Origin: a virus | Reading direction: 5' to 3' (one strand) | DNA length: 24,764 bases | Virus record (IMG/VR): IMGVR_UViG_3300033273_000623 | Location: 1 to 24,764 of that record | In this document: piece by piece, positions 1 to 21,492 of the stretch | How the letters are laid out: each line of letters begins with the position of its first letter | How positions within the stretch are numbered: the stretch's first letter is position 1 | Position numbers and translations under genes: made by a program | Notes under the pieces: generated by a model | What the model was told of the DNA's origin: nothing | Databases searched by the model: none | The model's input: only the letters and a program-made list of their open reading frames with translations

Positions 1-3000
1 CAGTTATTAATATAATGTTCTTTTTAGCCGCACTATTAGTACTACCACTTAATAAATTATATGCCAACTCAAGTGGTTTAGACGCGTATGTAAAACCTAG
101 ATCCCAACTAGTACCACTCAATGCATTAACAAAGTCAGTATGGTTGGAAGTTAATCCTGTTAGTAGTTCGATTTTGTCTTCAGCACAACTAGACCATTTA
201 TAAGCACCGATCTGTACTTCCCCAGCATCCATACGGTCTTCCAACGTGTTAGCAATTTCAATCGCCCCATTTACTAAGAAATCGAAATTAGACTGACTAC
301 CAATACTTCCTGATTGATCTATAAGAATTACAATGTCTTGGTCAGCACAAAGATCAGGTGTTTGTGTTAATGTTATGGTCGGCGTAGGTGTAGGTGTTTC
401 ACAAGCTTTAAAATTAGGTAGATTCGGACATCCTGCACATTTGTCTGAGAATTGATTGACAACAATATATTCAGTAGGATTAACATTAGGATCGTATTCT
501 GCTTTGAAACATTCACCTATAAGAGATCCTATTTCACCATTATATACGAATACACTACCCTCTGGTACTAAATCATTTATAAATAAACCATTCGTAAATG
601 GTTGTGAGTCATCACAACAACTTTTTGGATTTATTTTATAATAATTTAGTGGTGTTGTCTCAGTTGGTGTTGGAGTAATTGAACTAGTTGGTGTTATTGT
701 AGGGGTTAGTGTCGGACATGGGTTATACGTTGTACAGAGAGATGATTGACAAAAATCGTCATCAAGATTATCTAAAACAAGATCACTTATTATTAGGTCC
801 ACACCGGAACCAGGAAAACCTTCGTAAATTGGGTTATAATAATAACAATCGTTATCATATAAAAATCCTTGATTGGTAGAAGTAGTGACATCAACTCTTA
901 CTTTTATCCTTACCAAATATTGATCATCACAACAACTTACAAAATTTACCCATCTATATTGTGGTGTTATTGTTTGTGTTTGAGTTGGTGTAGGTGTGGG
1001 TAAGCTATCTAAGTAATTTACACAATCCAGACATCTGTTGAACCATATTGTTGGTGAATAAGTCGCAGAGTTTGATGTTATTTCGTTTGTATTTTTCGCT
1101 TCGTAACACGCTCTACCTTCGAAGTAGAATGATAATTTAGATCCATAAGCTTCCCAGACACTTAATAGTACATAAACAGTACCAGGTCCTGGACCTGCAC
1201 TACACTTATTAAATTCTAAAGTTTGAGGTGGTAATAAGTTTTTATTATTATCTGCAGAATTTGTAGGAGTTACGGGAATTGTAGATGTTACAGTAGGCGT
1301 TCTAGTTACAAAAGGTGTATTTGTAATTGTAGGTGTTAAAGTCTGTGTTAACTGAATTGTCTTAGTCGGTGTCGCAGTCGGACTTGGACACAATAAAGGG
1401 ACACAATCGTCAGTAGAACAAACATTTTTTACTATGTCGGATTCAGTAATAATTACTACTGGTGTGACACTTTCATATGTTAAGAATTGATAACATTGAC
1501 CAAAATATACAAAACCGTCTTTCAAGAAATAATCTACCGATGTACCAATTTTTACTAAATAAGTACTATCATCCCATTTTGTAAGTGAAGGATCAGTGAA
1601 GAATCCAAAATTTGTAAGACCGGGACCATTTTCTCTTTGTTCTGGATTTAGTACATCATTAAAATTAGTTGTAGTCTCTAAATCTGAATATGGATTTTCT
1701 GAGGTTAATATTGAAAGATTCAGATTTTGTGGACCAACATCTGTAATAGAGTCACCATATTTAGTTTGAAAATCTTCTGAACTTATTGTTTTACCTTCGA
1801 TCGCCGCTAAATTGTGTAATGCAAATGCAAAATTTGAATGCAAATCATCAGTCACACTATATAATGCAGTATTTATTTCACCTGATTGATTGTTTGTAAT
1901 ATCTGCCCAGACAGAAAGATATGACTCATAATCATGTATGTATCTATTAGTCGGTTGTTTACTTTGTGATAGATCCCAACCATATCCTTTAAGAACAAAA
2001 GGATCGTATATCAAATCATCTTTTGTACTCTGACCGTGATACATACCTATTTCACCATCAGATTCTTCTATAAAAGTAATAACTAAATAGTCGGTTTCCC
2101 CTCCATTAAATTGACCAATTCCTGATGTGTAAGTTTCATCTAAATTGTCGTGACTAAATGCAACACCATTTGATACTGTCGATCCTGTACCATATTCTAA
2201 ATCAAGACCTCTGTTAATTCTTTGTGCAATTGTTCCAAAGTCATTAACTTGAGTTTTGAATGGTGCACATCTGTAACCAGACTTACTCGAATCACATGAT
2301 TCTTGTACATAAGTACTATTTTCTACAACACCATCAAATTCATAAACAGTAGTACCGTCCGATAAAGTACCACCAGATAGCGATCCTAAATATGGATATA
2401 CTGACCACCATAACCAGTTTTCACCATTGGCTTCATTTTGACTATTACCGATAACCGTTTCGTACAGATTACCTGTTTGAAACTGATTTTTAACTAAATA
2501 GTCAGAATACCATTCTCTAATTTGATTCGAAGCCGATTTAAGTTTCTTCTCATCACGAATAGTACCATCGTAAAATACATATATTTTTTTAGGGTTTATA
2601 GGTCCCTGAACATGGATTGTAATGTTATTATTACAACAATTTGTCGCAACATAAGTTGTCGTTTTCTGTGTCGGTGTAACCGTAGGTGTTGTATCTATAG
2701 TATTAGTTACCGTAGAGGTAGGGGTATATGTTATTGTTTGTGTTGGTGTACTAGTCTGTGTAGGTGTAGGTGTTTGAGTTCCGTTAAATTCACATTCACT
2801 ACAAGAATTAAATTTTTCTTCAACCGTTAACCCTCCACTGTCCTTAAAGAACATATTAAATGAGTAACAAGTACTACCTACTTTAAAATGAGTGTAAGGA
2901 TAAAGTGCATTAGTATTACTTAATGTCATGTTAAGAAAACCCCTTTGTGGTTTTGCTTCACATGTGGTCACTCTAAATGACATATTTGATAAGTCACCAT

Positions 3001-4288
3001 CGTAGTAATCTATTAAGTCTCTTGCATCGTCACAATCATCATGAACTGTTTGGGCAAACTTAGCATCTGATATCTGTTCAGTGGTTAGTGATTTAGTTCT
3101 ATTTATTATTATTGTGCTGAATGAATGACCTAGATCATCAATATAAGTTACAACTTTACCAATTAAGTTTTCACCATCTTCTATTGTTCCAAATATTTTT
3201 ATAATCGGATCCTGAATTGTCGCATCACAGTTATTTGAAGTAAAATATTGAGTAAAACGATTAGGATATTGATCTCTATATTTAGGATCTTCAGAAGGTG
3301 TAGGTGTTGCAAATGGAGGTAAAGGTGTGGATGTAGGTGTTGGCGTTACTGGTTTACTTGCAGTAATTGAAGGTGTAGGTGTACTTGTCGGGGTAGGCGT
3401 ATTGGTCGGACAAACACACAACACGTCATCATTACATCCTTGGTAAATTGGTCCAACAGCATTACCTGTGAAATCAAAAGTACCTAATGGATCTGTAGCT
3501 GGTGTAAAAGGTGTAAATGTATAACAACCAGAAGGTAAATTGTCATCATTTGTAATTTGCCAAGTACCACTAGCACTCTGAGCCCAACTAGATTGACTTA
3601 TTCTATAATAATCAAGAATATCATCTTTACAACAGGGAATTATATTGTAATATGCAGGAGTAGTTGTTGGCGTCTGTGTAGGTTTAGGAGTTACAGTTAA
3701 TGTTGACGTAACAGTTGGAGTAGCAGTCGCCGCCGGTGTACTTGTTAATGTTGGAGTTACAGTTGGAGATGTCGTGACTGTTGGTGTTGGAGTTGGCGGA
3801 TCGGTATAATAAATCACAACCGATGGTAACTCAGAACCGGATGTAGTACTTCCAGTTATATTAAGATTACCAATTCCTGTATTACTTGATACTAGAAATT
3901 TGTAGCTGAGTTGTTCTATCAACGATACTGTCAGTCCAGTAAGCCCGAACAACTCAGTTGGTCCACCTATAGTAACATTTTGTGTCGATGCCGACACTTC
4001 CTCAATTCTAATTAAATTTGACGGACTACTTGAAAATCCAATTAAAAATCGAACAAAAATACTACGATCAGTAGTACCTAATACATTGTGAAATTCAAGA
4101 CCGTTTATAACTGAACCTGTAGGTATTCCAGTTGTTAATCCTTTGAGTAGTATGTTATCACCAACCTGAGCACCCCCCAATGAATTACTATTAGCCACAC
4201 CAGCATTACCACTCAACAATGATGAAGGATTATTAAAACCCGAATGAGTAGATAAAGTTAAAAATCTTAATTTTGCAGTATTAGCCAT
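1..4288 (-). CDS. Giant Pro/Thr-linker, Cys-rich, VWA-domain structural protein (partial, C-terminus beyond window)
   Basis: The frame starts at ATG 4286-4288 (MANTAKLRFLTLST) and stays open to the left edge, giving at least 1429 codons with no stop. An N-terminal region (about 1-162) is followed by six divergent domains, separated and flanked by seven linkers of alternating Thr and Pro (about residues 164-211, 293-331, 504-547, 967-1011, 1093-1110, 1191-1213, 1296-1312). Four domains begin with a Cys-Cys pair after the linker (C219/C220, C551/C552, C1119/C1120, C1224/C1225), three of them followed by Asp-Asp or similar, and most domains end in a C-x-x-C or spaced Cys pair. From about 1314 the chain is a von Willebrand A domain: strand DIVILID, MIDAS D1324-x-S1326-x-S1328, probable MIDAS Thr1400, and the strand KKNIILIT at the window edge. 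It is the last gene of the baseplate-region operon. Inferred role: exposed fibre or adhesin; a host-like surface protein is an alternative. No SD precedes the start. Reading frame is certain; function is inferred. Confidence 0.88.
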   Translation of the reverse strand, partial: MANTAKLRFLTLSTHSGFNNPSSLLSGNAGVANSNSLGGAQVGDNILLKGLTTGIPTGSVINGLEFHNVLGTTDRSIFVRFLIGFSSSPSNLIRIEEVSASTQNVTIGGPTELFGLTGLTVSLIEQLSYKFLVSSNTGIGNLNITGSTTSGSELPSVVIYYTDPPTPTPTVTTSPTVTPTLTSTPAATATPTVTSTLTVTPKPTQTPTTTPAYYNIIPCCKDDILDYYRISQSSWAQSASGTWQITNDDNLPSGCYTFTPFTPATDPLGTFDFTGNAVGPIYQGCNDDVLCVCPTNTPTPTSTPTPSITASKPVTPTPTSTPLPPFATPTPSEDPKYRDQYPNRFTQYFTSNNCDATIQDPIIKIFGTIEDGENLIGKVVTYIDDLGHSFSTIIINRTKSLTTEQISDAKFAQTVHDDCDDARDLIDYYDGDLSNMSFRVTTCEAKPQRGFLNMTLSNTNALYPYTHFKVGSTCYSFNMFFKDSGGLTVEEKFNSCSECEFNGTQTPTPTQTSTPTQTITYTPTSTVTNTIDTTPTVTPTQKTTTYVATNCCNNNITIHVQGPINPKKIYVFYDGTIRDEKKLKSASNQIREWYSDYLVKNQFQTGNLYETVIGNSQNEANGENWLWWSVYPYLGSLSGGTLSDGTTVYEFDGVVENSTYVQESCDSSKSGYRCAPFKTQVNDFGTIAQRINRGLDLEYGTGSTVSNGVAFSHDNLDETYTSGIGQFNGGETDYLVITFIEESDGEIGMYHGQSTKDDLIYDPFVLKGYGWDLSQSKQPTNRYIHDYESYLSVWADITNNQSGEINTALYSVTDDLHSNFAFALHNLAAIEGKTISSEDFQTKYGDSITDVGPQNLNLSILTSENPYSDLETTTNFNDVLNPEQRENGPGLTNFGFFTDPSLTKWDDSTYLVKIGTSVDYFLKDGFVYFGQCYQFLTYESVTPVVIITESDIVKNVCSTDDCVPLLCPSPTATPTKTIQLTQTLTPTITNTPFVTRTPTVTSTIPVTPTNSADNNKNLLPPQTLEFNKCSAGPGPGTVYVLLSVWEAYGSKLSFYFEGRACYEAKNTNEITSNSATYSPTIWFNRCLDCVNYLDSLPTPTPTQTQTITPQYRWVNFVSCCDDQYLVRIKVRVDVTTSTNQGFLYDNDCYYYNPIYEGFPGSGVDLIISDLVLDNLDDDFCQSSLCTTYNPCPTLTPTITPTSSITPTPTETTPLNYYKINPKSCCDDSQPFTNGLFINDLVPEGSVFVYNGEIGSLIGECFKAEYDPNVNPTEYIVVNQFSDKCAGCPNLPNFKACETPTPTPTITLTQTPDLCADQDIVILIDQSGSIGSQSNFDFLVNGAIEIANTLEDRMDAGEVQIGAYKWSSCAEDKIELLTGLTSNHTDFVNALSGTSWDLGFTYASKPLELAYNLLSGSTNSAAKKNIILIT
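353..3799 (-). repeat. Seven low-complexity Thr-Pro linker repeats inside the giant VWA gene
   Basis: Seven tracts at about 3656-3799, 3296-3412, 2648-2779, 1256-1390, 959-1012, 650-718 and 353-403 are built from the plus-strand motif ggtgtaggtgt and its variants, which on the coding strand read as alternating ACA/ACT (Thr) and CCT/CCA (Pro) codons. The 16-base string gtaggtgtaggtgttt occurs at both 384-399 and 2760-2775. The encoded segments look like extended, unstructured spacers, comparable in composition to the Pro-Thr linkers of secreted bacterial enzymes and adhesins. At DNA level such tracts could allow slippage or recombination between modules; that is inference. Confidence 0.85.
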
Positions 4289-4329: not shown

Positions 4330-7269
4330 TTATGTCTGACAATTGATCGAAATATCTACTTTCGCATTTATGGAAAGTGATTCTTGTTCGAACAAAGTAT
4401 CACACCCGGCATTCTGTATATTTATTATATTTTCATTTACCGTATATACTAGACCATAAGTTGTAAAAATATTTAGATTATCAAGTACAGAATTGTACCA
4501 TTCATCTTGACTTGGGAAATCATTACTACCATTTCCTGAATAAAAATTTTCTTCTAATATAATAGTTTCATCTAATTTAAATAAAACCGACCAACTGCTA
4601 GTTAATGAATTTAAATTACAGTCTGAAGTGTTAAGATTGTTTGTGTCCAAAAGATTTTGTAAGGTTGAATTTAATATTGTTGATAAACTTGTCGTTATAT
4701 CACAACTCAACTCTTTAGTAACACAGTCGTAACCAAAGATTTGTCCAGTCAAAGTACATGGAATACAAGGAATCGGGACGATTTCACAACCTCGTTGTTT
4801 TCTCCAAACAACTTTTTGTCTGTGGAAGACACTATTTTCTAGTTTTTGACCCCCAGTCCAAAGAGTAGTTGCTGGTACAACTTGTTCAAGTAATTTTGTC
4901 CAATAACTTCCCAAACCATTGGTGAAGTCAATCATCTTTTGGTAAGTGTATTTGTTGGATGGAATATTAATATTTTCCTCTGATTGTAGGTAGTCCCAAT
5001 ATATTTGTTGTAAGGATGGATAGGTATAATAAGAAGTTTGACGTTTTTTTACATCAATTAAATTTCTATAAAATGTTTGTGCAAATTCGAAGAAGGTTTT
5101 CTCCTGTGGTTTTGGATCAATTACAGTTCTATCAGTTCCCGTAGTATTCAAAAATTCAGTTGTAAGACCTGATGAAGGAATAGGATAATTGAATTTTCTC
5201 GACATATCCCAGACATCATAAATAAGACCCTGACCCATATTCAAAAATACTTCAATATTTTTAGCATTTATGACGAGTCTTTCGTCAGAAACTTGATAAT
5301 ATGAATTAAAACCTTGATTTGAATTTTTTCTTAGTCCTGTCTCATCATAAGCCCACGATTTTTGGTTATCAATAGTTCTTGTAATCCCAAATCCAAGATT
5401 CATTTCTGGGAAGTTTTTAAACCTTGATAGATATTTTTCCCCGTATGTAAATGATTCTAACGTAGTCTGTACATTAGAGTTTTCACCTGTAAACGTGGAA
5501 TTTGTCACATCTAACATTTCAAGTGATCTGTGATCTGGTGTTTGTTGGAACCAACCCGCACCTTGTTCAAAGAAATATTCTTCTGTTTGTTTAGGACTCT
5601 TGGGGTAACCTAATTCATCGACCGGAAAATCTTCCATTGTCGTCGTTACATTTACCACCCTACTCTGTGTTGTAAATCCTGTATATTGAACACCTTCAAA
5701 GGTGAATACATCATTAGGGTCGAGAACCGTATCAGTAATAATTTTAGAACCTCCAGAAAATGAATCAAATTCCTGTCTGAAATTATTTATGTTTATTGGC
5801 CCATCTGCCAGATATACTGTTTCATTAAATTCAATTAGAGCTTTCGGTGCTCCGATAAACCTGAGTAAATATTCTAATGATCTATGAGTACCTTTAGATT
5901 TGAACAAATAAGCAGAGTTAAGAATTAAGTTTCTATAATATTGATAGTTTAACTCTGCTGGGCTTTTATCTTTTGACAAACCACTATAAATTGATCCTTC
6001 CTTTGTGTTGAATACGGATTCTAAAAAGTCTGAATTACTTATAGGAGAAATGTCTGTATTCCATCCCAGTGTCATAGATAAATTTTTAAGTAACTGTGAT
6101 GGAATATCATCTTGAACATTGTAATTTACCGAATTGATATGTGCTAATGCGTCAACAAACTTTTTAATCTCGTCAAAACTTCTACCATACAATTGAAGAA
6201 CTTTTTCCATCTTTTGATCATCTGTATCAAAATCTTTGAATGCACCAGTAGTTAAAAATCTTGATATTAAATCTGTTTTAAATTCATCTAAACTTTCACC
6301 GATATCATTTAATTTTTCGAGATAACCTTCATAGTTGTTTGTGATAATATCTAAATTCCATTCTCCGTCTAATGGCCAAGTTGCTCTTTTATTTGTTTTG
6401 AAATATCTTCCACTAATGTCTTCCTCTATTACTTGGAACTCAGCAGTATAGATTGGTACTATCTGTCTGTTCAATATAAACTTTTCAACCTCGTCAAAAC
6501 TTTGATCGAATATTTTTTCAGTTTCTAAATTACTAGGCTTAATTATTAGGGTTTTAGTAGTAGTAGAATTTAAATTAAATGGGTCTCCATTTACAAATAA
6601 CGTAATAGTTCCCCCACTTACAAATTCTGAAGGTTCAAAATCTACTAATTCGTATTCAACGTTGAACTCATTATCAACATATAATGAATATTTACTAAAG
6701 TTATTCGTTAAATCTCTTACCTCACTAACATCCATAGGATTTAGTGATATGTTTCTATTAGAATTTCTTGAATAATCAATTCCAAAAGGATTTTTGAGTC
6801 TATCAACGTCGATCTTTAATTGTGTAACATTATTATTAATATCAAAAGAAATATCGTAAGCAGTATTACCAGTTGTATAGTTATTAGAAATGTAATTAAC
6901 TTGTAAAGCCGCTGGAAAGTTATTAATAATTTTGGTCACTGAAGCTGACAATCTTTTCCGTAGCGATCCATATAATGCATAATTTGTGACTCGTGTCAAG
7001 TCGTAATTAGGATATACATTAAATTTTTTAGAAGCGATTTCTTTTGCCTCATTAACTGAATTTACTTGTAGATCATTAAGCGTTATAGGATCAGAAAAAA
7101 CTCCAATGTCAAAATTCCTATCACTTTTTTCACTTACACCACTACCAAAGTCAAAGTTTCCTTGTGTTAGACCTCCACCGTCAGTTATTTGCAGGCCAAC
7201 TAAGTTCTTCGAAAAGGTTTCACCTCCATTTGGTGGTGCTGGTGGATATCTAAACTTATTATCAGACAT
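4330..7269 (-). CDS. Tail protein I-like baseplate protein, 979 aa (possible gp7 equivalent)
   Basis: Residues about 340-490 resemble the core of the phage tail protein I family (P2 gpI, Mu gp48): a helical stretch MEKVLQLYGRSFDEIKKFVD, then LGW and a Tyr/Arg-rich helix leading to KSKGTHRSLEYLLRFIGAP, whose KGT...L...IG pattern is the family hallmark. In contractile tails this family pairs with the gp6/J protein in the core wedge complex and is regarded as the counterpart of T4 gp7. At 979 aa it is several times longer than P2 gpI, with a large N-terminal region and a Cys-containing tail (GCEIVPIPCIPC onward). Its ATG overlaps the stop of the 302-aa gene by one base (TAATG), implying translational coupling. 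The giant VWA gene follows 41 bp downstream. Coding is certain; the family assignment rests on the motif only. Confidence 0.75.
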   Translation of the reverse strand: MSDNKFRYPPAPPNGGETFSKNLVGLQITDGGGLTQGNFDFGSGVSEKSDRNFDIGVFSDPITLNDLQVNSVNEAKEIASKKFNVYPNYDLTRVTNYALYGSLRKRLSASVTKIINNFPAALQVNYISNNYTTGNTAYDISFDINNNVTQLKIDVDRLKNPFGIDYSRNSNRNISLNPMDVSEVRDLTNNFSKYSLYVDNEFNVEYELVDFEPSEFVSGGTITLFVNGDPFNLNSTTTKTLIIKPSNLETEKIFDQSFDEVEKFILNRQIVPIYTAEFQVIEEDISGRYFKTNKRATWPLDGEWNLDIITNNYEGYLEKLNDIGESLDEFKTDLISRFLTTGAFKDFDTDDQKMEKVLQLYGRSFDEIKKFVDALAHINSVNYNVQDDIPSQLLKNLSMTLGWNTDISPISNSDFLESVFNTKEGSIYSGLSKDKSPAELNYQYYRNLILNSAYLFKSKGTHRSLEYLLRFIGAPKALIEFNETVYLADGPININNFRQEFDSFSGGSKIITDTVLDPNDVFTFEGVQYTGFTTQSRVVNVTTTMEDFPVDELGYPKSPKQTEEYFFEQGAGWFQQTPDHRSLEMLDVTNSTFTGENSNVQTTLESFTYGEKYLSRFKNFPEMNLGFGITRTIDNQKSWAYDETGLRKNSNQGFNSYYQVSDERLVINAKNIEVFLNMGQGLIYDVWDMSRKFNYPIPSSGLTTEFLNTTGTDRTVIDPKPQEKTFFEFAQTFYRNLIDVKKRQTSYYTYPSLQQIYWDYLQSEENINIPSNKYTYQKMIDFTNGLGSYWTKLLEQVVPATTLWTGGQKLENSVFHRQKVVWRKQRGCEIVPIPCIPCTLTGQIFGYDCVTKELSCDITTSLSTILNSTLQNLLDTNNLNTSDCNLNSLTSSWSVLFKLDETIILEENFYSGNGSNDFPSQDEWYNSVLDNLNIFTTYGLVYTVNENIINIQNAGCDTLFEQESLSINAKVDISINCQT

Positions 7270-8177
7270 TATTCAATTATGCTAGTAAAGTTTTTACTGA
7301 AATCTATATTATCATTCCTATCTTGTCTTACTTCATATAATAAGTTATTAAACTCATCTCTGATTTCGAATAGGTTATATTGTTTGTAAATATTTAACTG
7401 ATTATCGTAGATCGTATAAATACCATCTTCTATACTCTTAGTTTGATTACCATACAATGCCAGTGCTAATGTATCGATATCATGTTCTGCCAATTGGACA
7501 TCTATAGAAACTGGATTGAAAAATGTATTTGTTACTATAATATTTTGATCCGGGTTACCTATAAATGGTGTAGCATTTGGTTTATTAGATGGTGCACTTG
7601 ATGGTGATAATGTCAAAAATATTAGATCACTTCCGTTATCAACATATCTATATCTTATACTTTTTTGTGTAGTATTTGTTTGATTTGATACGACAGGTTC
7701 ACAAAAAAATGACGAAGTTATAATTCTGAAAAAGTTATTAGTTTTACTTCCGTCATTATTCAAATATTCTACTCTGTAACCCACTAATCCATTATTAGTA
7801 AATCTACTTCTAAATTCAGATGGTACTTGTGTGATATCTAGAATAATACCTTTTACATTAGGTAGTGCGGATAACACACCACAATCTCTAATAGTAGTTC
7901 TAATTTCTACTGGTTTTATATATAGAGTATATATACCAATTTTATTGAATTCTGATGATGGTAATTTCAAATTGTATAAACCACCTATTACCTCAACATT
8001 AGCATTTCCACCAGTATTACTATTATGATATATAGGTGTTAATACATCTTGGGCATTTAATTTTTTTAGTAATGTATCATTACTTACATCCCTACTCGGT
8101 GAATAGTTTAATATTATTTCCACATCTGAGGGTAAAACATCTGCCGGTCTCTGTGTTCCATAACTTCCTAGTGCCAT
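7269..8177 (-). CDS. Unknown baseplate-region structural protein, 302 aa
   Basis: I do not recognise this family. The protein begins MALGSYGTQRPADVLPSD, is rich in Asn, Ser, Thr and aromatic residues, and reads as mostly beta-strand, with a probable Asn/Pro-rich loop around SPSSAPSNKPNATP. There is no signal peptide, membrane segment or catalytic motif. The start lies just beyond the stop of the 317-aa gene (2 bases apart) and the stop shares a base with the start of the 979-aa gene, so it belongs to the same transcription unit of tail genes. A virion role, such as a baseplate or fibre-attachment component, is inferred from neighbours only. Confidence 0.8.
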   Translation of the reverse strand: MALGSYGTQRPADVLPSDVEIILNYSPSRDVSNDTLLKKLNAQDVLTPIYHNSNTGGNANVEVIGGLYNLKLPSSEFNKIGIYTLYIKPVEIRTTIRDCGVLSALPNVKGIILDITQVPSEFRSRFTNNGLVGYRVEYLNNDGSKTNNFFRIITSSFFCEPVVSNQTNTTQKSIRYRYVDNGSDLIFLTLSPSSAPSNKPNATPFIGNPDQNIIVTNTFFNPVSIDVQLAEHDIDTLALALYGNQTKSIEDGIYTIYDNQLNIYKQYNLFEIRDEFNNLLYEVRQDRNDNIDFSKNFTSIIE

Positions 8178-8179
8178 GA

Positions 8180-9133
8180 TTATTGATTATTAATTTTAAA
8201 ATATTTATACCCATAGTTTTGTAAATCACCAATATTGTCTATTTCTCCTAGTCTTTGTAAACTTTCCAACCCTGACAATTTACCTCTATCAATAAATACC
8301 TCTGATTGTATTTCTGGTGAATCTACAATACCTAAAAGAACTTCTTCTTTTGTAGTCCCTGAATAAACTTGATTGTCCTCATTTAGACCATAGCTCTCAA
8401 CAAAATAAATTGTCGTACCATCAGGATAATCAAAATAATCAATTTCGTTTACCGTATATGCGGTATATTGATCGTTCATCTCAGTTATCTGACCATAAAA
8501 TTCACCCTTCTTTATTATTGGTCTTAATGTTTCATATTTTATCTGACCATAAAGTTTCAATTCATTTAATTTAGAACTTGTAAACCCACTTATAATAAAA
8601 GGTTCATTTTCATAAACAACCTCACCTTCGATATTTGATGGATTTATAGGTATAGAAATTGTCTTTTGAATTTTGGCTTCTCCCCACTTATTTTTTCTAG
8701 TATAGGTAATAGTGTAATCCCCATCTTCAAGAGGATAATTATGTGTTACAGAATCATACAGAAAAGGGTTAATTTGTTCAGAAATACCATCACCCCAATC
8801 TATAGTAAACTCAGATCCAATATTTACCTTACCTTCCTTAATTGATGTATCAAAAAATACTATTTGATAAACATTCATAGGATTGCCCGATATAACAAAA
8901 TTAGTGATTTGATTTAGTTGTTCAACAGTACCATCAAATGGAGTATAAAAACCTATATCTTTTACATCTTGAGATAATGAAATGGTAAAATTTAACTCTT
9001 GTATAAAACCATTTTGTAAAACATATTCTATAGGTTTATACAAACCAAAATCTATGTCATCATAATTTTTTTCAATTATATCTTTTTGTAAAACTTCGGG
9101 TGAAATTTTAAAGAAATATTTATCTTGACTCAT
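8180..9133 (-). CDS. PKD-like domain baseplate-region protein, 317 aa
   Basis: Residues about 90-162 fit a PKD/Ig-like beta-sandwich: FTIDWGDG (109-116), then SVTHNYPLEDGDYTITYT (128-145) and a closing strand ending near TISIP. The WGDG turn and the H-x-Y...G-x-Y-x-x-x pattern are the usual PKD signature. Such domains are common on extracellular Bacteroidota proteins and also appear in phage tail proteins as carbohydrate- or protein-binding decorations. The flanks are unfamiliar; the C-terminus has a charged segment (RGKLSGLESLQRLGEI) followed by a Tyr-rich end. The ATG overlaps the stop of the preceding gene as ATGA, indicating coupled translation. The domain call is by motif; the precise role is unknown. 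Confidence 0.8.
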   Translation of the reverse strand: MSQDKYFFKISPEVLQKDIIEKNYDDIDFGLYKPIEYVLQNGFIQELNFTISLSQDVKDIGFYTPFDGTVEQLNQITNFVISGNPMNVYQIVFFDTSIKEGKVNIGSEFTIDWGDGISEQINPFLYDSVTHNYPLEDGDYTITYTRKNKWGEAKIQKTISIPINPSNIEGEVVYENEPFIISGFTSSKLNELKLYGQIKYETLRPIIKKGEFYGQITEMNDQYTAYTVNEIDYFDYPDGTTIYFVESYGLNEDNQVYSGTTKEEVLLGIVDSPEIQSEVFIDRGKLSGLESLQRLGEIDNIGDLQNYGYKYFKINNQ

Positions 9134-9984
9134 GGATTAACGTATTCATACCAGTTTATTGGGTTATTTTCACTTCCAATTATTTGATCTTGGTCATTAA
9201 AGACTGAGTATTTCAATGATTGAAAATCCATCTGTATTTTATGATAAAAATAATCTTCTTTTTTGAAATTAAATTTCGTAGATATTATCGATTGAGGTGA
9301 AGTTATAAACCGTATAAACTCCCCAACTTTAGCATTAAAAAATTTTACCGACATATAAAAAGTATTTGACGGTATTAAGGATAAGTCTTCGGTAAAGTAT
9401 ATATAAAAACCTTCTTTGTCCCCAACATAATCCAATTTGAAATCAGGAATACGAATTTTTACATTATTAGGTACCAATTCTGTACCAATATTTCTAACTA
9501 AATTATCCCCTTGTTGTGTTGGTATTATAACAGTAAAGTAATTTTTTTGTTCCGAAGTATTTTTACTATCGTAAAAATCTAATTTGAAAAAACTTCTCTT
9601 AAATGAGTTAGCCCCAAAATATATCTCCTTATCTGTAAACGACTGACCCGTAAAATCAGGATTTGTTGTTGAATTATAATCATTAATCCAAAGATCAGAA
9701 TCACTAAATGATGTATTTGATATATTTTGACTATAATTAAAAAAATAAAACTTATAATTTATTAATGATTTAGGAGGATCACCAATTGAATTATGTGAAA
9801 ACTTTAGTGTTTCAAAATTTTTGATCGGATTTATAACTTTATCTATTACATCATCTTCAAAGATTTTGATCAAATCCTCCTGTCCATTCAAATCAAAATC
9901 AATTTTCACTGGAATATTAATTTGTTGATCTATATCTGATATGGTTAGTCGATATTTATTCACAATTATCAGTATTTGGCGCAA
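9130..9984 (-). CDS. Unknown baseplate-region protein, 284 aa
   Basis: I do not recognise this protein. It is rich in Phe, Tyr, Asn, Ile and Lys, reads as mainly beta-strand with repeated aromatic motifs (for example YKFYFFNYSQ, FYMSVKFFNA), and has no signal peptide, membrane helix or catalytic motif. The start is uncertain: ATG 9984 gives a 29-base overlap with the 569-aa gene, while an in-frame GTG at 9961-9963 (VNKYRLTISD) cuts this to 8 bases. No ribosome-binding motif decides between them. The 3' end overlaps the next gene by 4 bases (ATGA). Its place within the tail operon suggests a virion component. Confidence 0.75.
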   Translation of the reverse strand: MRQILIIVNKYRLTISDIDQQINIPVKIDFDLNGQEDLIKIFEDDVIDKVINPIKNFETLKFSHNSIGDPPKSLINYKFYFFNYSQNISNTSFSDSDLWINDYNSTTNPDFTGQSFTDKEIYFGANSFKRSFFKLDFYDSKNTSEQKNYFTVIIPTQQGDNLVRNIGTELVPNNVKIRIPDFKLDYVGDKEGFYIYFTEDLSLIPSNTFYMSVKFFNAKVGEFIRFITSPQSIISTKFNFKKEDYFYHKIQMDFQSLKYSVFNDQDQIIGSENNPINWYEYVNP

Positions 9985-11665
9985 TGATTATATCTGTAAA
10001 TAGATTTAAGTTTTTAAATAATGGTGCCTGTAAAAACAGAATCTCTTTAAATGGGTAGTGTGACCCATTTAAAAATGGAAAATCAACTCCATTACCATTT
10101 TCATCTATGAATCCATAATCATATAAATCTCTCCATCTCCATTGTTGATCATAGTCTGAAAAAAATGCATAGTCTGGAAATAGGTCTATTTTATCTTTGT
10201 CCCCAAACTCAACTGAATCTGAGTATTCTTTTATTTTTACTTCGTGATGAGGTTTATAACTGTAACCATTAGGTAAATTAGGATTTTCATCAGAACCATC
10301 ATTAAAGTTGTTTAAATTAAAACTTATCTTGTGGTTTATTGTTGAAAGAACATTTTCTTTTTGATCGTATTCATTCCATTCACATATATCACCTTTAAGT
10401 TCCGTACCAATTTCCAACTCCCTCGTGAAATAAAAATCTCTACTATTAATAGTATAATGATTGTTGGGTAAGTTATCTCTATTATGTGGATTCAATTTAG
10501 ACCACCACCCATCAATTTGATCGTTAGAAAAATTCATGTCCCATCCGACTTCAATACTTGTTGTATTTCCTGCAGGTACAGCATTATTAAACCAACCAAC
10601 ATATCCATTTTTTACAATTGTTATAAATAGACTACTTACAGGTCTTTTATTATTATCTCTTAATTTACTTATATCGAAATCTTTGTTAAATGTTAAACTA
10701 TATGTCTGATTATTCTCCTTAATCGCCATACGTTCAACATTATTAGGTGTAAGTGCTGAATATTGTATTTTTTTTTCTTGAAAAAATGGATTTTGTTCAT
10801 ACGCAAGTTTTACGATGTCAACATCTTTACTATTTGACAAAATTTTATGTTTCCTACAGTAGTATTCTGATTTTGTCTCTTCGGGATTATTTATATCAAT
10901 TATTCTTTTAAAATTACCTATTGTATTTTCAAAAAATTGTTGGTAACCAAAATTATATATTGTAAATACTTTTTTATCATTCCCATAACTATTATCACCT
11001 AAACTATAAACTTCGAAGATTGTCCTGCCATCGATTGGTTGTGTTAGTTCTATAGAATTACCAATTTGTAAATTGTGTTCATAAGCACAGTAAAAATAAA
11101 TTAAGTTTTTTCCTCTACTTTTTTTATTCTTTATAATAAATGGAATCCCATCAGATACAACATATTGATTTACAATATTAGTGTCTTCATCTTCAAATTG
11201 TAATTCTTGATCATAGTCGTTTTCAAAGGGGTAACTCAAATAAACTCTCCAATTATAAGTGGAAGCACTTTCTGAATTGTAGGGTATATGACCTTCAGGT
11301 ACTCTAGTTCTTACAAATGTAAATTCATCTGCGGGGGGATACCCCTTGAACGGTGAACCATTCTGTACCGTGGTCTCTGGATTTACATAAAATAGATTGT
11401 TTAAGAATGGTTCATATCCCGAAGTTCCTACAATATCATTTTCGAAAATATTTGTAATTTTACCAGATACTCTTATTTTATTACTTATCTGACGTTCTTT
11501 ATCAAATCTTTCAGCCAGATTTAATATGGTAGTACGATCTTTTTCAACATAATTTTTTTGTTCACCTTTCAATTCAATGTCTAACGATAAATCATTATCT
11601 GTAGACCCTGCAAATCTTTCGGAACCTTTTACAATTCTAATACTATCTGTCTTTAAATTACTCAT
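9956..11665 (-). CDS. Unknown baseplate-region structural protein, 569 aa
   Basis: Family not recognised. The N-terminal about 75 residues are charged (KTDSIRIVKGSERF; VEKDRTTILNLAERFDKERQ), followed by a long beta-rich, aromatic region with several Trp-containing motifs (VGWFNNAVPAG, IDGWWSKLNPHNRDN, YDQQWRWRDLYDYGF). The C-terminal part ends in Asp/Asn-rich sequence. There is no membrane segment or enzymatic motif. The start is ATG 11663-11665 in an ATGA overlap with the stop of the 1883-aa gene, so its translation is probably coupled to it. By position after gp25 and gp6 it could occupy the slot of a T4 wedge protein such as gp8 or gp10, but I see no sequence similarity to either and do not assign it. 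Confidence 0.8.
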   Translation of the reverse strand: MSNLKTDSIRIVKGSERFAGSTDNDLSLDIELKGEQKNYVEKDRTTILNLAERFDKERQISNKIRVSGKITNIFENDIVGTSGYEPFLNNLFYVNPETTVQNGSPFKGYPPADEFTFVRTRVPEGHIPYNSESASTYNWRVYLSYPFENDYDQELQFEDEDTNIVNQYVVSDGIPFIIKNKKSRGKNLIYFYCAYEHNLQIGNSIELTQPIDGRTIFEVYSLGDNSYGNDKKVFTIYNFGYQQFFENTIGNFKRIIDINNPEETKSEYYCRKHKILSNSKDVDIVKLAYEQNPFFQEKKIQYSALTPNNVERMAIKENNQTYSLTFNKDFDISKLRDNNKRPVSSLFITIVKNGYVGWFNNAVPAGNTTSIEVGWDMNFSNDQIDGWWSKLNPHNRDNLPNNHYTINSRDFYFTRELEIGTELKGDICEWNEYDQKENVLSTINHKISFNLNNFNDGSDENPNLPNGYSYKPHHEVKIKEYSDSVEFGDKDKIDLFPDYAFFSDYDQQWRWRDLYDYGFIDENGNGVDFPFLNGSHYPFKEILFLQAPLFKNLNLFTDIIIAPNTDNCE

Positions 11666-14600
11666 GTCTCTAAAAATAAGTACTTACTTAAAAATTTATT
11701 CAAAGCAGATTTACCCTTTTGTAATCCAAAGTAAAAATGATAAGGTGACCCAACTTTTATTGAATGTGTTGTCCCAGGGAATGCATCTAATTCAGGATCA
11801 TTTACACTAGCATTATATAAATAACCATAAGCAGGTCCACTAGTTGGTACCGCGTATCCTGAACTATCTAAGGGTGAATTTTGATAATTCATAGAATATA
11901 TATCTTGAGTGTTCCAATTATTTTCACTATCAACACCAAATAGACCAGCATTTGGTTCTATAAACCACCTATAATAAGGAACTATTTGTGAACTAGTATA
12001 TCCAAAATAATTAGTTGGTGAACTTATCTCATCAGTACCGAAAGTAGAAATTCCTGGATTAACTTCTCTTCTATCTATTAAATCAGAGTCGAACCAAATA
12101 CCGAATCTATTTTCTAAAACGGTAACACTATCTAAGTAATTTCCCGCTAAATACGGAACAACACCAAATTCAGAATTAATACTGAACATTTGTGCACAAT
12201 CACCATCTACTCTATCCTCCTGGAAACCTGCTCCTTCATCACGAGAAAAAAGTCCTTTTACTGAAGCGTCTCCCGCACTTAATAAATTTTCTAAGAAATT
12301 TGCATTTACCAATCTACTTATCAAAAATAAATTAATTATATCCGCCGTACTCTCGTAGGACGTACTTTGTAATTTATCTAACACGAAAGATTCATATTCT
12401 GCAGAATTTATTACTTCTTTTAGTAATTGTTCTCTAGGACCTAGATCCATTATCGTAGTTGGAAACCATATATTCTTTTTATTTGCACCTTTATAACTCT
12501 GAGAAGGTGTTTGACCTATGAAGTTATTATTGTAATATGGTGTGGATCTATAGAAGAATGAATTACTTTGTGTATTAAAGTAAAGTGGTCCATCATCTGA
12601 ATTACTACCACAATATTTGTAAGAAATATTAGTATCCGTAATCTCCATCGTAATTGATGATATTATATTCGAATTTGTTGGTATTAATTTAAAATATACG
12701 TCATAATTACTGTTAAATTGGAAAGACGTTATATCATCTCCAATTTCTTCATCATTTAAAAATAAAGTATATGAACTTACATTTTCTGTTTCCAATATAG
12801 TGACATACCCATTGAAGTTAAAAGTATATATATTAGTAGAGTCACTACTAGCATTTTGAAATAATTCCTGTGTGGTAGAACTCTCAATTCCGAAAATTGT
12901 CTTTTTTTGAAATGAAGGAAAATATAATGTACCATTTATCCAATTATTTTGAAAAACATGACTTAATACTCCTCTACACATTGCAAACATCAGTCTAAAT
13001 CTAGCTTTATATTCAAAAAATAATTGGAAGTCTTTTCCTAATGTTCTCAGATATCTTACTCTAACAAATCTATAACATCCATTTTTAGTTCTTGACTCCA
13101 AATCTATAAATTTTTTAGTACCTTCATCCTCAACACAAGGAGATACGACCCCAAATTCTTCTCCCTCACCTTGATAACATTTGATCGATGTCATACCTTC
13201 ACATGTAAATGAGTTTTGTAATGATTGTAATTGACTCGGGAATTCATCTATATTATCATCCAAATTACCTGTGGTATCACTCTGAGTGGTTCCTAAATTA
13301 CCTCCAGTAATCTCTGTAATGTTTCCAAAGTCGTCGTATTTATAAGCTCGGAAATTTGGATTCATATGTAATGCAAATCTTTGATCAACTTGTAAAGTAC
13401 CATCAAAACCTAAACTAATAGAGTCTGATGTCGGGAGTCGATCAGTTCTGAATACTGTAATACCATATAAAGTAGTGTGTGGTATAGAATTATTATTTCT
13501 ATAATACGAAGGTGAAATAGTTGCAACATCTGATCTATCGATACATCTACCCCAATTATCACAGTCACTACCAGTATTAGAGTTTCTTTTTGCGTACTGG
13601 AAACTACATCCCTCAACACGTCCTTCGTATTTTCCTAAATTACCATTAGCACCATCAGAATTACTAGCCTGTATTCCACCTATCCTATTTACACAACCAT
13701 CACTATTCGGTTCTAATGCACTGTTATATCCATTTATGTGTACCGCTAGATTCTGTAAAGATAAATTACCGATTTGTTCGATTATACTATTACCATTAGT
13801 AAAACTACTATATGTAGAGAATCTATATGACATTGTAGATGCAATATCTTTAGATAATGAAGCATAATGTGTATACCCAGTTGTCTCAAACCTTTTACCA
13901 TATGAGTTTGGATCGTTTGGATCTTGAAAACCCATATAAAAACTAAACGGTCTATGGAAACAACTGTACCCAGCAACACTTGGGTCATTCATAGTTGATA
14001 AAAAATCTGCACCAGCATTATTTGATTCCCAGTACCCATCTACGTTATTGGAAGGAATCCATTTATATATCGCGTTTGGTGATTTGTGGTCATAAATTGC
14101 TTGTGTGTTTTGTCCACCATTTGGCTGTATAGGTATGTTCATAAAAAACTCACCTTCAACTACACATCCAGGATAATTTACAAGGTTTCTTCCAAATAAT
14201 TTACCCAATTCAAATCTCATTTTTTGTCTAGGTCCGTGGGGATCAACTCCACGAGTCATTATATATATTTTTTGGTCTTTGAAATTAGGGAATTGCTCCC
14301 AGTTAAATTTAGTAATCCAATTTTCTTCACCTTGTTGTTGACTAAATATATCTGATGAGTTTTCACAAGGATCTAAGTTTGGACTAACAGTATTGAATGT
14401 ATTACAAATAACCCTTTGTTTAGAGTACATTAAATGATGATAAATAATACTGTTGTGTTTTAAATCACCTACTTTTTGTCCTCCACCTGCATTTGTTCCC
14501 CAAACAAGCCCACCACTAGAATATGGAACAATTTCGTCATCAGGTACAATCAAATTATCATTTTCGTCTATTGTAGTTTGAAAGTGTGCCAAAAATTCAT

Positions 14601-17313
14601 TAACAGTCATACCTGTTACCACTTGGAAATACTCTACACCAGCGGTATACTTGTAGTCAGTCGTTGAAGCAGTATTGAAATACTGGATTTGAGATGTTTT
14701 AACTAAATCCTCACCATTTGTTGGTGTATAAAATGGATTCATCCACTTTACTTCTTTTGTTATGGTACTAGTGGTACTATAGTCTGTAAGACCAGTAATA
14801 CCTCTCCTTCCAAATCCATTGTCACTTCCGACAGTACCACCAGTATAATACTCGAGGTTTGGATCATCTTGTGCAGCACTTTCGGGATCATTGAATGATA
14901 TCAAATCTCCACTTTCCCAATTTACTGAAGGATCTGCTAAAACGACTAATGGCATATCCCACCAAGGTTCATTAGTACCTGTACCACCCCCACCAATTGA
15001 TACTGGACCACCACCTGAACTGAATTGGTTGTTATTCAATCTACACTTGATACCTAAGAACCTATTCGACGCATCTACCGTATATCCTAACCCAACAGCA
15101 CTTACATTCTCTGGTGCAAAATATCTTGCCCTTTGATTCATGAGATTTAACACTTGAGGGAACGTAGGGTTTGGTGATACCAACCAAAACTTTTTTAGAA
15201 CCACACAACCTTCTTGCCCTTCCCAGTATTCCCACTTCCTTCTTGGATACACTGGTGACATAAACCACCTAGCAAATGAAGCGTCCAAACCTAAATTAGC
15301 ATTAGGTGATATGTCATTTGTGATTGCGTTACCTGCAAATGCCATCATTCTACCCTGGAAATTTTCATCATTTGATGGGTCATAGTTTGGATAATTACCA
15401 CCTTCTCCACAATCAACTGGATCATATTGTTGATAAACGTTTACATCAGATAGTGAGCTAACATTTTGAAGTTGGGCTAATTCTATTTGCGCCTCTTGAT
15501 ATTCAGGCGAATCCGTATCTGCTGGTAACGCTTCGTTAGAACAATTACATGTTTCACAATCAGGATATGGTAACATTGGTAATCCTAGATTCGAAAAAGG
15601 ATTCTCGTCACCTAGTAATGGTTTTTCTTCACAGATATCAGGATTATTTTCTTTTATGAACGCAAATGGGTACCAATTAATAATTTTAATACCACTAATT
15701 TTACACAATATTCGTCTAACAGCATTTAAGAAAACCCTTATCGCGTTTATAATAATCCTTATTATAGGCCAGAACCAAGCCAAAAAGTGAACTATTGGTA
15801 AAATCACAAATACTTGTGGTGTAAATAAAAACATCATTATACTGAACACAAAAAATAAAAAATCAAAGTTTCTAACCCCGTCATTAACAGGTAATTTATT
15901 GATATTACTCTCACATTCACGATCGTCTATTTCTTTAATACCTAAATGTCTTGCACGGTTTCTACCGAACTTGAACCTATCAATATGAGATGATACAGTA
16001 TATACTTTATTATATTTAAACTCATAGAATGAGTCTTGACATGTTATTGCAGCGTTTTTATCAAAATAATCATCCCAATCTAAAGAAAATGAATAAGATT
16101 GATTCATTGTAAAATCATTAGGTCTTGATCCTGATAATAACCAATGTTCTTTAATGTTAGGGATCAAATAATTAGCCCTTAAGATATTCTTTTTCAACCC
16201 GGCCTCACTCTGCCACTTTATTTTAAATCTGTATTTACCTTTTGTCGGTATACCGACCGTAGGATCGTTAGAAATTATTGTTTCACCAAATTCATTAGTG
16301 GCCAAATAATCTAAATTCATAGGTAAATCAACCATCCAAGTACCATCATCATCAATTAGATTACCATTATTTTCTAACCTATATTCTTCAAGGATAGGGT
16401 CACCATTATTGTCTGAATCGATAGTTTGTCTTATAGATAGAATTTGACCTGGTGCAGTCTCTAGTGTACACAAATTACCAGTATTAGGTTTCGGTTTACA
16501 GTTTGATTTCAAAAAGTCTCTTTCACTGGAACTGAAAAATGAACCCATGAAAATCGCTGTTGGCTGAATTTCAACACCTAATTCTCTTAGATCGAAGTCA
16601 ACTCTTGTAATACCTACGTCACAATTTTCACTATCACCCCAGAAAGACGCAACATCTACATCAACAACATCATGAATTATCTGAGGTAATGAATCAATGT
16701 TTTCTGACCTTTTAAAAAATTGTCCATCAAATTGTGTCTCTACACCCATACCCATTCTAACCAAATCAGTTGGTCTTAACGAGAATTGACCTATATTCGA
16801 TAGGTCTAAATCTAACACAACTTTTTGTTGACCTAGGGGTACACCAACAATCATAAAATCTCCAGAATCATTTGTTTTTACTGTAAACTTATAATAGTTT
16901 TCATAAACATGTAATACTTCACTTCTAGTCAAAACATCATTTCTAGAAGGAAACGTTCCTGTAGGATTGTGTGCGTAATTTTCTTGTGTATAAGGTAATA
17001 GGTTATACCTAAAACCATCCTCATTTTTATCAGATGGTCTTTTGTATGGGTAAAGTGTAGAGATGACTGGATCATTTTCATCAATACTATTCAAAGGTAT
17101 AAAAACCGAGACATTCGCATTAGGAATACCAAAACCTCCGTTAGCAATAACCCTTCCGGTGACTATACCGTAATCAGCACAAAAACGATCATAAACATCT
17201 TCTTGTCTAATTTTTAAAGATAGAATTTCTAAAAAATCAAAATCCTGATCTATTTTTACATTCAAATTTCTATCTTCACCAATTTTTGTCCTAATACGTA
17301 TATTTTTGGGCAT
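11662..17313 (-). CDS. Giant baseplate-region protein, 1883 aa, with carboxypeptidase-regulatory-like domain and hydrophobic segment
   Basis: One open frame of 1883 codons directly after gp6. Residues about 48-172 look like a carboxypeptidase-D regulatory-like beta-sandwich: GIVTGRVIANGGFGIPNANV (49-68) and later DSGDFMIVGVPLGQQKVVLD (149-168), the fold often found at the N-terminus of Bacteroidota surface and transport proteins. Residues about 483-537 form a strongly hydrophobic stretch containing FLFFVFSIMMFLF and later HFLAWFWPII, followed by a basic amphipathic part (RVFLNAVRRILCKI) and a Cys cluster (PDCETCNCSN near 585-592). The rest is Asn/Ser/aromatic-rich with scattered Cys and Trp and no motif I can name. 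In T4 order the gene after gp6 is gp7 (1032 aa), so a wedge role is plausible, but similarity to gp7 is not visible. It starts at ATG 17313 with no SD and overlaps the next gene by ATGA. Confidence 0.82.
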   Translation of the reverse strand: MPKNIRIRTKIGEDRNLNVKIDQDFDFLEILSLKIRQEDVYDRFCADYGIVTGRVIANGGFGIPNANVSVFIPLNSIDENDPVISTLYPYKRPSDKNEDGFRYNLLPYTQENYAHNPTGTFPSRNDVLTRSEVLHVYENYYKFTVKTNDSGDFMIVGVPLGQQKVVLDLDLSNIGQFSLRPTDLVRMGMGVETQFDGQFFKRSENIDSLPQIIHDVVDVDVASFWGDSENCDVGITRVDFDLRELGVEIQPTAIFMGSFFSSSERDFLKSNCKPKPNTGNLCTLETAPGQILSIRQTIDSDNNGDPILEEYRLENNGNLIDDDGTWMVDLPMNLDYLATNEFGETIISNDPTVGIPTKGKYRFKIKWQSEAGLKKNILRANYLIPNIKEHWLLSGSRPNDFTMNQSYSFSLDWDDYFDKNAAITCQDSFYEFKYNKVYTVSSHIDRFKFGRNRARHLGIKEIDDRECESNINKLPVNDGVRNFDFLFFVFSIMMFLFTPQVFVILPIVHFLAWFWPIIRIIINAIRVFLNAVRRILCKISGIKIINWYPFAFIKENNPDICEEKPLLGDENPFSNLGLPMLPYPDCETCNCSNEALPADTDSPEYQEAQIELAQLQNVSSLSDVNVYQQYDPVDCGEGGNYPNYDPSNDENFQGRMMAFAGNAITNDISPNANLGLDASFARWFMSPVYPRRKWEYWEGQEGCVVLKKFWLVSPNPTFPQVLNLMNQRARYFAPENVSAVGLGYTVDASNRFLGIKCRLNNNQFSSGGGPVSIGGGGTGTNEPWWDMPLVVLADPSVNWESGDLISFNDPESAAQDDPNLEYYTGGTVGSDNGFGRRGITGLTDYSTTSTITKEVKWMNPFYTPTNGEDLVKTSQIQYFNTASTTDYKYTAGVEYFQVVTGMTVNEFLAHFQTTIDENDNLIVPDDEIVPYSSGGLVWGTNAGGGQKVGDLKHNSIIYHHLMYSKQRVICNTFNTVSPNLDPCENSSDIFSQQQGEENWITKFNWEQFPNFKDQKIYIMTRGVDPHGPRQKMRFELGKLFGRNLVNYPGCVVEGEFFMNIPIQPNGGQNTQAIYDHKSPNAIYKWIPSNNVDGYWESNNAGADFLSTMNDPSVAGYSCFHRPFSFYMGFQDPNDPNSYGKRFETTGYTHYASLSKDIASTMSYRFSTYSSFTNGNSIIEQIGNLSLQNLAVHINGYNSALEPNSDGCVNRIGGIQASNSDGANGNLGKYEGRVEGCSFQYAKRNSNTGSDCDNWGRCIDRSDVATISPSYYRNNNSIPHTTLYGITVFRTDRLPTSDSISLGFDGTLQVDQRFALHMNPNFRAYKYDDFGNITEITGGNLGTTQSDTTGNLDDNIDEFPSQLQSLQNSFTCEGMTSIKCYQGEGEEFGVVSPCVEDEGTKKFIDLESRTKNGCYRFVRVRYLRTLGKDFQLFFEYKARFRLMFAMCRGVLSHVFQNNWINGTLYFPSFQKKTIFGIESSTTQELFQNASSDSTNIYTFNFNGYVTILETENVSSYTLFLNDEEIGDDITSFQFNSNYDVYFKLIPTNSNIISSITMEITDTNISYKYCGSNSDDGPLYFNTQSNSFFYRSTPYYNNNFIGQTPSQSYKGANKKNIWFPTTIMDLGPREQLLKEVINSAEYESFVLDKLQSTSYESTADIINLFLISRLVNANFLENLLSAGDASVKGLFSRDEGAGFQEDRVDGDCAQMFSINSEFGVVPYLAGNYLDSVTVLENRFGIWFDSDLIDRREVNPGISTFGTDEISSPTNYFGYTSSQIVPYYRWFIEPNAGLFGVDSENNWNTQDIYSMNYQNSPLDSSGYAVPTSGPAYGYLYNASVNDPELDAFPGTTHSIKVGSPYHFYFGLQKGKSALNKFLSKYLFLET

Positions 17314-17373: not shown

Positions 17374-17392
17374 TACAATTAGGTAAATTGTA
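17374..17392. repeat. Small inverted repeat at the gp6 stop and 65-bp gap
   Basis: tacaatt (17374-17380) and aattgta (17386-17392) form a perfect 7-bp inverted repeat around a 5-base loop, overlapping the stop codon of the gp6-like gene. There is no following U-run on the coding strand, so it is a poor intrinsic terminator; it may be a weak hairpin or chance. The rest of the 65-bp gap 17314-17378 is A/T-rich leader for the 1883-aa gene and shows nothing else clear. Confidence 0.25.
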
Positions 17393-21473: not shown

Positions 21474-21492
21474 ATTTTTTATATAGTTTTAA

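Follow-up and report, generated by a model that had tools for sequence, protein, structure and literature searches.

A giant gene behind the baseplate genes of an uncultured contractile-tailed phage encodes a probable modular tail adhesin with a von Willebrand A domain

The DNA stretch analyzed here (hereinafter, the window) is the entire 24,764-base IMG/VR record IMGVR_UViG_3300033273_000623, the left 4.3 kb of which is occupied by a single open reading frame on the minus strand. This frame most likely represents the 5′ third of a gene whose product is a giant tail adhesin (fibre) of modular build, carried on the virion of an uncultured contractile-tailed phage, the host of which probably belongs to Bacteroidota. 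A von Willebrand A (VWA) domain with a metal ion-dependent adhesion site (MIDAS) is found in the encoded protein together with Cys-rich units, a phage-specific domain of about 370 aa, and Thr/Pro-rich (PT) linkers.

The window frame is a real gene under strong purifying selection. It begins with an ATG codon at position 4288 and continues to the contig end (2–4288, minus strand) for 1429 codons without a stop, which at approximately 35% GC is far beyond chance expectation. The initial annotation had already described this frame as open throughout and as hidden; the latter applies only to gene callers that refuse open ends and is due to the contig edge. Related sequences were used in place of a leftward extension of the record, and a scan of viral contigs revealed 19 related loci. 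The protein of one of them, L002 (on a 104,710-base contig), aligns across all 1429 window residues with 81.6% identity and carries on in the same frame up to 3751 aa. Thus, a stop or frame break directly beyond the window was looked for in the relatives and not found, and about 2300 further aa follow. The complete frames of the loci L003 and L004 encode 3842 aa and 3440 aa, respectively, which bears out the proposed giant size of the protein; judging by these relatives (~3800 aa), the window holds about the first third of the gene. Comparison of the window with L002 gave a synonymous divergence (dS) of 1.17, a nonsynonymous divergence (dN) of 0.126, and a dN/dS ratio (omega) of 0.108; since dS is high and near saturation, the omega values are approximate. 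By part, omega was 0.025 for the VWA domain, which is the most constrained part tested, 0.05 for the 370-aa domain, 0.165 for the N-terminal domain, and 0.39 for the first PT linker.

According to the Pfam analysis, residues 1318–1429 match VWA_2 (31.3 bits) and VWA (29.4 bits), both above the cut-offs; for PF00092, the cut-off is 23.8 bits, and the L002 copy reaches 50.2 bits. The D1324-Q-S-G-S motif and T1400 (in G-F-T-Y) are located exactly where the initial annotation had placed them. The window breaks off in ...NIILIT, immediately ahead of the Asp of the TDG motif, so that two-thirds of the MIDAS are visible. L002, L003, the three copies of L006, and further copies do have this Asp, the third MIDAS residue. 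Among the six aligned VWA copies, DxSxS and the Thr are invariant, and the TDG Asp occurs in all five that are complete. 3D modeling of the complete L002 copy using AlphaFold predicts, with high confidence, the Rossmann-like VWA fold that the initial annotation had anticipated (predicted local distance difference test, pLDDT, 90.9; predicted template modeling score, pTM, 0.90). A Foldseek search with this model found many VWA domains (E 3e-10), and the best matches were mostly extracellular or adhesive proteins, namely, mussel PTMP1, CMG2/ANTXR2, the A3 domain of von Willebrand factor (vWF), collagen VI, Lactobacillus SpaC, and integrin I domains. The profile search with the VWA domain indicated collagen VI alpha 3 (E 1.8e-28). 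The domain may bind a ligand in a metal-dependent manner.

The VWA domain is not a constant part of the related proteins. Two Cys units come after it in L002 and L003 and after each of the three VWA copies of L006, and the whole cassette is missing from L004; therefore, the VWA domain behaves as an optional cassette that has been gained, duplicated, and lost. The MIDAS is intact in nine complete VWA copies and lost in five. Each VWA-bearing relative with a gene long enough to judge has at least one copy with an intact MIDAS, and in the truncated L068 only a degenerate copy is visible. The initial annotation had the frame ending in the VWA domain, which is correct for the window edge but not for the protein, where the domain lies only about one third of the way in. 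A DDSGSM motif at residue 1796 of the L017 protein may mark a further divergent VWA domain that has no Pfam match.

As for the other modules, the chain of Cys-rich domains reported earlier was recovered as three clear units and one weak unit of about 70 aa with the pattern CC...G..Y.G.CY...C..C; the complete proteins of L002–L004 have 9–11 such units. PT linkers make up 15–22% of the protein in the window and in L002–L004. No obvious signal peptide was seen by eye at the N-terminus. A C-terminal sorting domain of the type IX secretion system (T9SS) was not found, the matches to Por_Secre_tail being weak, internal, and sub-threshold.

The 370-aa domain is present in one or two copies per protein and was found in 25 viral contigs. 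It also occurs, with 45–48% identity, in collagen-like proteins with the Peptidase_S74 fibre chaperone that belong to a different phage group (L008–L016). Its structural model is weak (pLDDT 58.9). A structure search gave no significant match, about half of the top 50 sub-threshold matches being VWA or I-like domains by our count, and the comparison with the VWA profile showed no similarity; the model thus gives only a hint that the domain is possibly a divergent VWA-like fold. Neither the whole giant protein, nor its VWA domain, nor the 370-aa domain has a match in 50,697 phage records (tblastn). When 84,980 genomes of bacteria and archaea were scanned by pattern, no close relative of the VWA domain and no 370-aa domain came to light; since these scans gave no relative, neither the host nor a cellular origin can be read from them.

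The giant gene occupies a fixed slot at the end of the tail gene cluster, in agreement with the location at the end of a baseplate operon given in the initial annotation. In the window, the genes encoding gp25-like and gp6-like proteins are followed by those encoding proteins of 1883, 569, 284, 317, 302, and 979 aa and then by the giant gene. The 979-aa and 302-aa genes precede the giant gene in 13 related loci, and the other neighbours do so wherever the locus reaches far enough. The L002 contig also has genes for sheath, tube, and tape-measure proteins upstream on the strand of the giant gene, and these are followed by gp25, gp6, the six conserved genes, and the giant gene. The assignment to T4-type phages is strictly not correct, as the recognizable proteins are limited to gp6, gp25, and those of the sheath, tube, and tape measure, and the conserved neighbours tested have no relative in the 50,697 records.

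The slot was surveyed in the best 80 loci, which were the highest-ranking ones rather than a random draw; 60 had a readable slot gene, many slot genes being cut by locus ends. PT-rich sequences were found in 51 of the 60, SprB-like repeats in 47, Cys units in 13, the 370-aa domain in eight, and VWA in five. The SprB detector had been built from a single seed, and seven slot genes were therefore examined with Pfam as a control of its count: L141 (E 1.5e-26), L092, and L138 were above the cut-off, L120 was just below it, and L078, L077, and L068 gave no match, of which L077 and L068 were negative in the survey too and L078 had been counted as positive. Proteins above the PF13573 (SprB) cut-off include those of L006, L017, L020, L034, L048, L053, L092, and L141. 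L002–L004 are below it, although the region is homologous to proteins that pass, and the window ends before this region. In most relatives the slot protein is 710–1040 aa long and either contains SprB repeats (L141:13896-16025, L092:13845-16133, and others) or is Thr/Pro-rich. The smallest form, that of L141 (710 aa), consists of six SprB repeats and a C-terminal domain (C-domain). When a C-domain profile was built exclusively from slot proteins, it matched the C-terminus in 40 of the 74 979-aa-type proteins and nothing among reversed sequences; by this profile, the C-domain is common to the slot adhesins and the upstream 979-aa tail protein, and it may link the two proteins or attach each of them to the same partner. 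What stays constant in the slot is an adhesin with SprB repeats or PT linkers whose C-terminal domain is shared with the upstream gene, and the window represents a rare, enlarged version that combines PT linkers, Cys units, the 370-aa domain, and one to three VWA domains.

Of the readings considered, a virion-borne adhesin agrees best with the fixed place behind the tail genes, with a domain that also occurs in S74 fibres, with the modules of the SprB and VWA types and the flexible linkers, and with the fact that neither a signal peptide nor a T9SS domain is evident. In such a fibre, flexible Thr/Pro-rich linkers would string together Cys-stabilized units, one or two copies of the 370-aa domain, and a VWA domain similar to those of collagen VI and integrins with a complete MIDAS; the SprB-like block and the C-domain would come after the VWA part. 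The C-domain region would anchor the fibre near the baseplate, the linkers would supply reach, and the VWA domain, via a bound divalent metal, would bind an acidic group on a ligand of the host surface in early attachment. The slot itself would diversify through gain, loss, and duplication of domain cassettes. The sequences themselves show the frame and its domains, the slot with its gene order, the selection, and the shuffling of domains, whereas location in the virion, metal binding, the ligand, and the host are inferred. Of the metal-dependent host-binding fibre originally proposed, the fibre is probable, and metal dependence is suggested by the motif, which some sister VWA domains have lost. 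Several points weigh against our interpretation. The location in the virion is argued from gene order and analogy, the window's own VWA domain is incomplete, and none of the classical signatures of trimeric fibres was found in the giant protein itself. In addition, five sister VWA copies have lost the MIDAS and L004 has no VWA domain; therefore, the slot does not depend on metal binding.

The last two observations, together with the presence of VWA in only five of the 60 surveyed slot genes, would also be expected if the VWA domain and its sister modules were structural spacers, a stiff scaffold of a long fibre in which metal coordination is a relict and the host is recognized elsewhere (by the SprB-like block, the C-terminus, or downstream fibres). 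This is possible but clearly the less probable alternative, considering the intact MIDAS retained in every VWA-bearing relative that could be judged and the strong constraint on the VWA domain of the window. A host-type adhesin (SprB-like, for gliding or the cell surface) displayed by the infected or lysogenized cell and not part of the virion would be in keeping with SprB repeats being typical of Bacteroidota surface adhesins, the PF13573 matches in the relatives, and the weak Por_Secre_tail matches. However, neither a signal peptide (by eye) nor a C-terminal T9SS domain is evident, many phages keep the gene at this place in the late tail cluster, and the 370-aa domain occurs in S74 fibres, which makes such a role improbable. 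The known phage VWA proteins are of the MoxR-vWA type or similar to CobT/TerF, which would suggest an intracellular assembly factor, namely, a VWA cochaperone of a MoxR-type AAA+ ATPase. We rejected this possibility as very improbable: no adjacent MoxR ATPase is present among the identified window genes (several neighbours have no family match), the VWA is one domain within a PT/Cys-rich chain of ~3800 aa, the nearest structures are extracellular, and the giant gene has a fixed position behind tail genes. An assembly artefact, i.e., a chimeric contig end or read-through of non-coding DNA, could be imagined for a frame that touches the contig end, but the same frame and gene order recur with 81–94% identity in the independent L002 contig and also in more distant relatives; this explanation was rejected and its probability is negligible.

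Table 1. Features of the window, with coordinates on the 24,764-base record.
Feature	Position	Strand	Remarks
Putative giant tail-adhesin gene, 5′ part, 1429 codons	2..4288	-	3′ open at contig end; complete relatives L002–L004
VWA domain, N-terminal ~60% (residues 1316–1429)	2..343	-	PF00092/PF13519; 94% identical to L002 copy
MIDAS motif 1, D1324-Q-S-G-S	305..319	-	Located in translated frame
MIDAS motif 2, T1400 (in G-F-T-Y)	89..91	-	Invariant among aligned VWA copies
Cys unit 4 (residues 1218–1292)	413..637	-	E 4.3e-19
Cys unit 3 (residues 1113–1187)	728..952	-	E 2.4e-16
Cys unit 2, weak (residues 1026–1092)	1013..1213	-	E 0.005
Cys unit 1 (residues 906–963)	1400..1573	-	E 3.6e-15
Phage-specific ~370-aa "VFYD" domain (residues 561–930)	1499..2608	-	25 viral contigs
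Thr/Pro-rich linker (residues 290–335)	3284..3421	-	Composition
First Thr/Pro-rich linker (residues 159–214)	3647..3814	-	Fastest-evolving stretch, omega 0.39
N-terminal domain (residues 1–158)	3815..4288	-	77% identical to L002, omega 0.165
979-aa conserved neighbour	4330..7269	-	C-terminal ~120 aa (4339–4704) homologous to slot-adhesin C-domain
302-aa conserved neighbour, lineage marker	7269..8177	-	At least 532 viral contigs
317-aa conserved neighbour	8180..9133	-	Conserved across loci
284-aa conserved neighbour	9130..9984	-	Conserved across loci
569-aa conserved neighbour	9956..11665	-	Conserved across loci
1883-aa protein between gp6 and cassette	11662..17313	-	No function match
gp6-like baseplate wedge protein	17379..19217	-	phrog_219, 1.7e-19
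gp25-like baseplate wedge protein	19222..19707	-	phrog_261, 1.6e-17

Most of the neighbouring proteins (Table 1) could not be related to known families. In PHROGs or, where scanned, in Pfam, no match was obtained for six of the eight proteins encoded in the tail cluster ahead of the giant gene, and tblastn with three of them gave no hit in the 50,697 phage records. PDB profile searches with the 979-aa and 569-aa proteins found nothing. The 302-aa gene was found in at least 532 viral contigs and in 0 of the 50,697 phage records. The closest named relatives of gp6, with 26–28% identity, belong to Flavobacterium phage immuto (26% over 99% of the length), Microcystis phage Mel-JY01, and an uncultured 484-kb phage. 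SprB repeats are a surface-adhesin module of Bacteroidota, and it is these repeats and the gp6 similarity to immuto that point to Bacteroidota as the probable host. Between the genes for a DnaB-like helicase and gp25/gp6, the window contains genes for the ribonucleotide reductase subunits NrdA and NrdB (19767–22773, minus strand), the NrdA being closest (63%) to those of Sporosarcina and Staphylococcus phages.

Downstream of the giant gene in the L002 contig, the next large genes (L063:693-5222 and L063:5905-11784) encode proteins with three metzincin zinc-protease motifs, HELGHNLGLDH and HEFGHVLGLRH in one protein and HEMGHTFGLHH in the other. The same contig encodes (L064:572-3565 and L064:3615-11336) a glycosyltransferase of the N-acetylglucosamine type (PF11397, E 7e-69) and a second glycosyltransferase, directly followed by a protein of 2574 aa with 34% Thr and 17% Pro, the start of which looks Hint-like by eye. 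Glycosylation of the linkers by the phage glycosyltransferases is possible, and a complex attachment and surface-digesting apparatus is plausible. The G001 contig encodes, at L060:1349-2842 (minus strand), a 498-aa phage protein in which the Fe/Mn superoxide dismutase domains are complete (PF02777, E 1.7e-38, and PF00081).

A modular phage tail adhesin is a known kind of protein, of which the giant protein is a new variant. Like the extracellular VWA proteins (collagen VI, vWF A3, the integrin I domain, CMG2, the Lactobacillus pilus adhesin SpaC, and mussel PTMP1), it combines a Rossmann-like VWA fold and a full MIDAS with a multidomain chain of linkers and Cys-rich modules; unlike them, its VWA domain is encoded in a phage tail cluster and followed by two ~70-aa Cys units. 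With the SprB-type adhesins of Bacteroidota (PF13573) the slot proteins share the SprB repeats, which occur in this slot in most relatives and in the homologous C-terminal region, but they are encoded in a phage tail operon and have no evident secretion signal or T9SS C-terminal domain. Collagen-like tail fibres with Peptidase_S74 have the 370-aa domain in common with the giant protein, whereas they contain collagen repeats in place of the PT linkers and Cys units and no VWA domain. In Flavobacterium phage immuto (MW353176), gp25, gp6, and several further genes similarly precede annotated tail fibre and tail spike genes; however, the five cassette genes before the giant gene have no detectable relation to immuto proteins, and the giant protein has no match there.

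Virus-encoded VWA domains have been described in the MoxR-vWA pairs of jumbo phages and Acidianus two-tailed virus, for which a role in virion assembly was proposed (PMC7824862); those proteins are intracellular cochaperones encoded beside an AAA+ ATPase, in contrast to the adhesin-type chain of the giant protein. Other phage VWA proteins are CobT-like (PMC8651126), belong to the Ter system (PMC7824862), or are unexplained annotations (PMC8504454, PMC10892097). No VWA domain was found described as a phage tail adhesin in the open-access literature, where phage VWA domains are intracellular, enzyme-associated, or unexplained; this is weak evidence of absence because only open-access papers were covered. 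For SprB repeats in phages, this literature likewise yielded nothing but one paper on bacterial polymorphic toxins. As far as found, a VWA domain of this type has not previously been described in a phage attachment protein.

A bolder extension, which we consider rather unlikely as a whole, would be that a large, uncultured lineage of phages assembles its adhesins combinatorially in this one slot. Repeats of the SprB type, PT linkers resembling mucins (perhaps glycosylated by glycosyltransferases of the phage), Cys units, animal-type VWA cassettes, and the phage-only domain, taken as a divergent VWA with an altered MIDAS, would then give integrin-like, metal-gated host binding.

If our interpretation is correct, this would be the first extracellular VWA domain similar to those of integrins and collagen VI, with a full MIDAS, to be described in a phage attachment protein in the open-access literature, and phage adsorption is predicted to depend on divalent cations and on one defined aspartate. 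The data also point to a large phage lineage, the tested marker genes of which have no relative among the phage records searched, and in which the receptor-binding slot appears to evolve by shuffling of adhesion modules, up to proteins of ~3800 aa.

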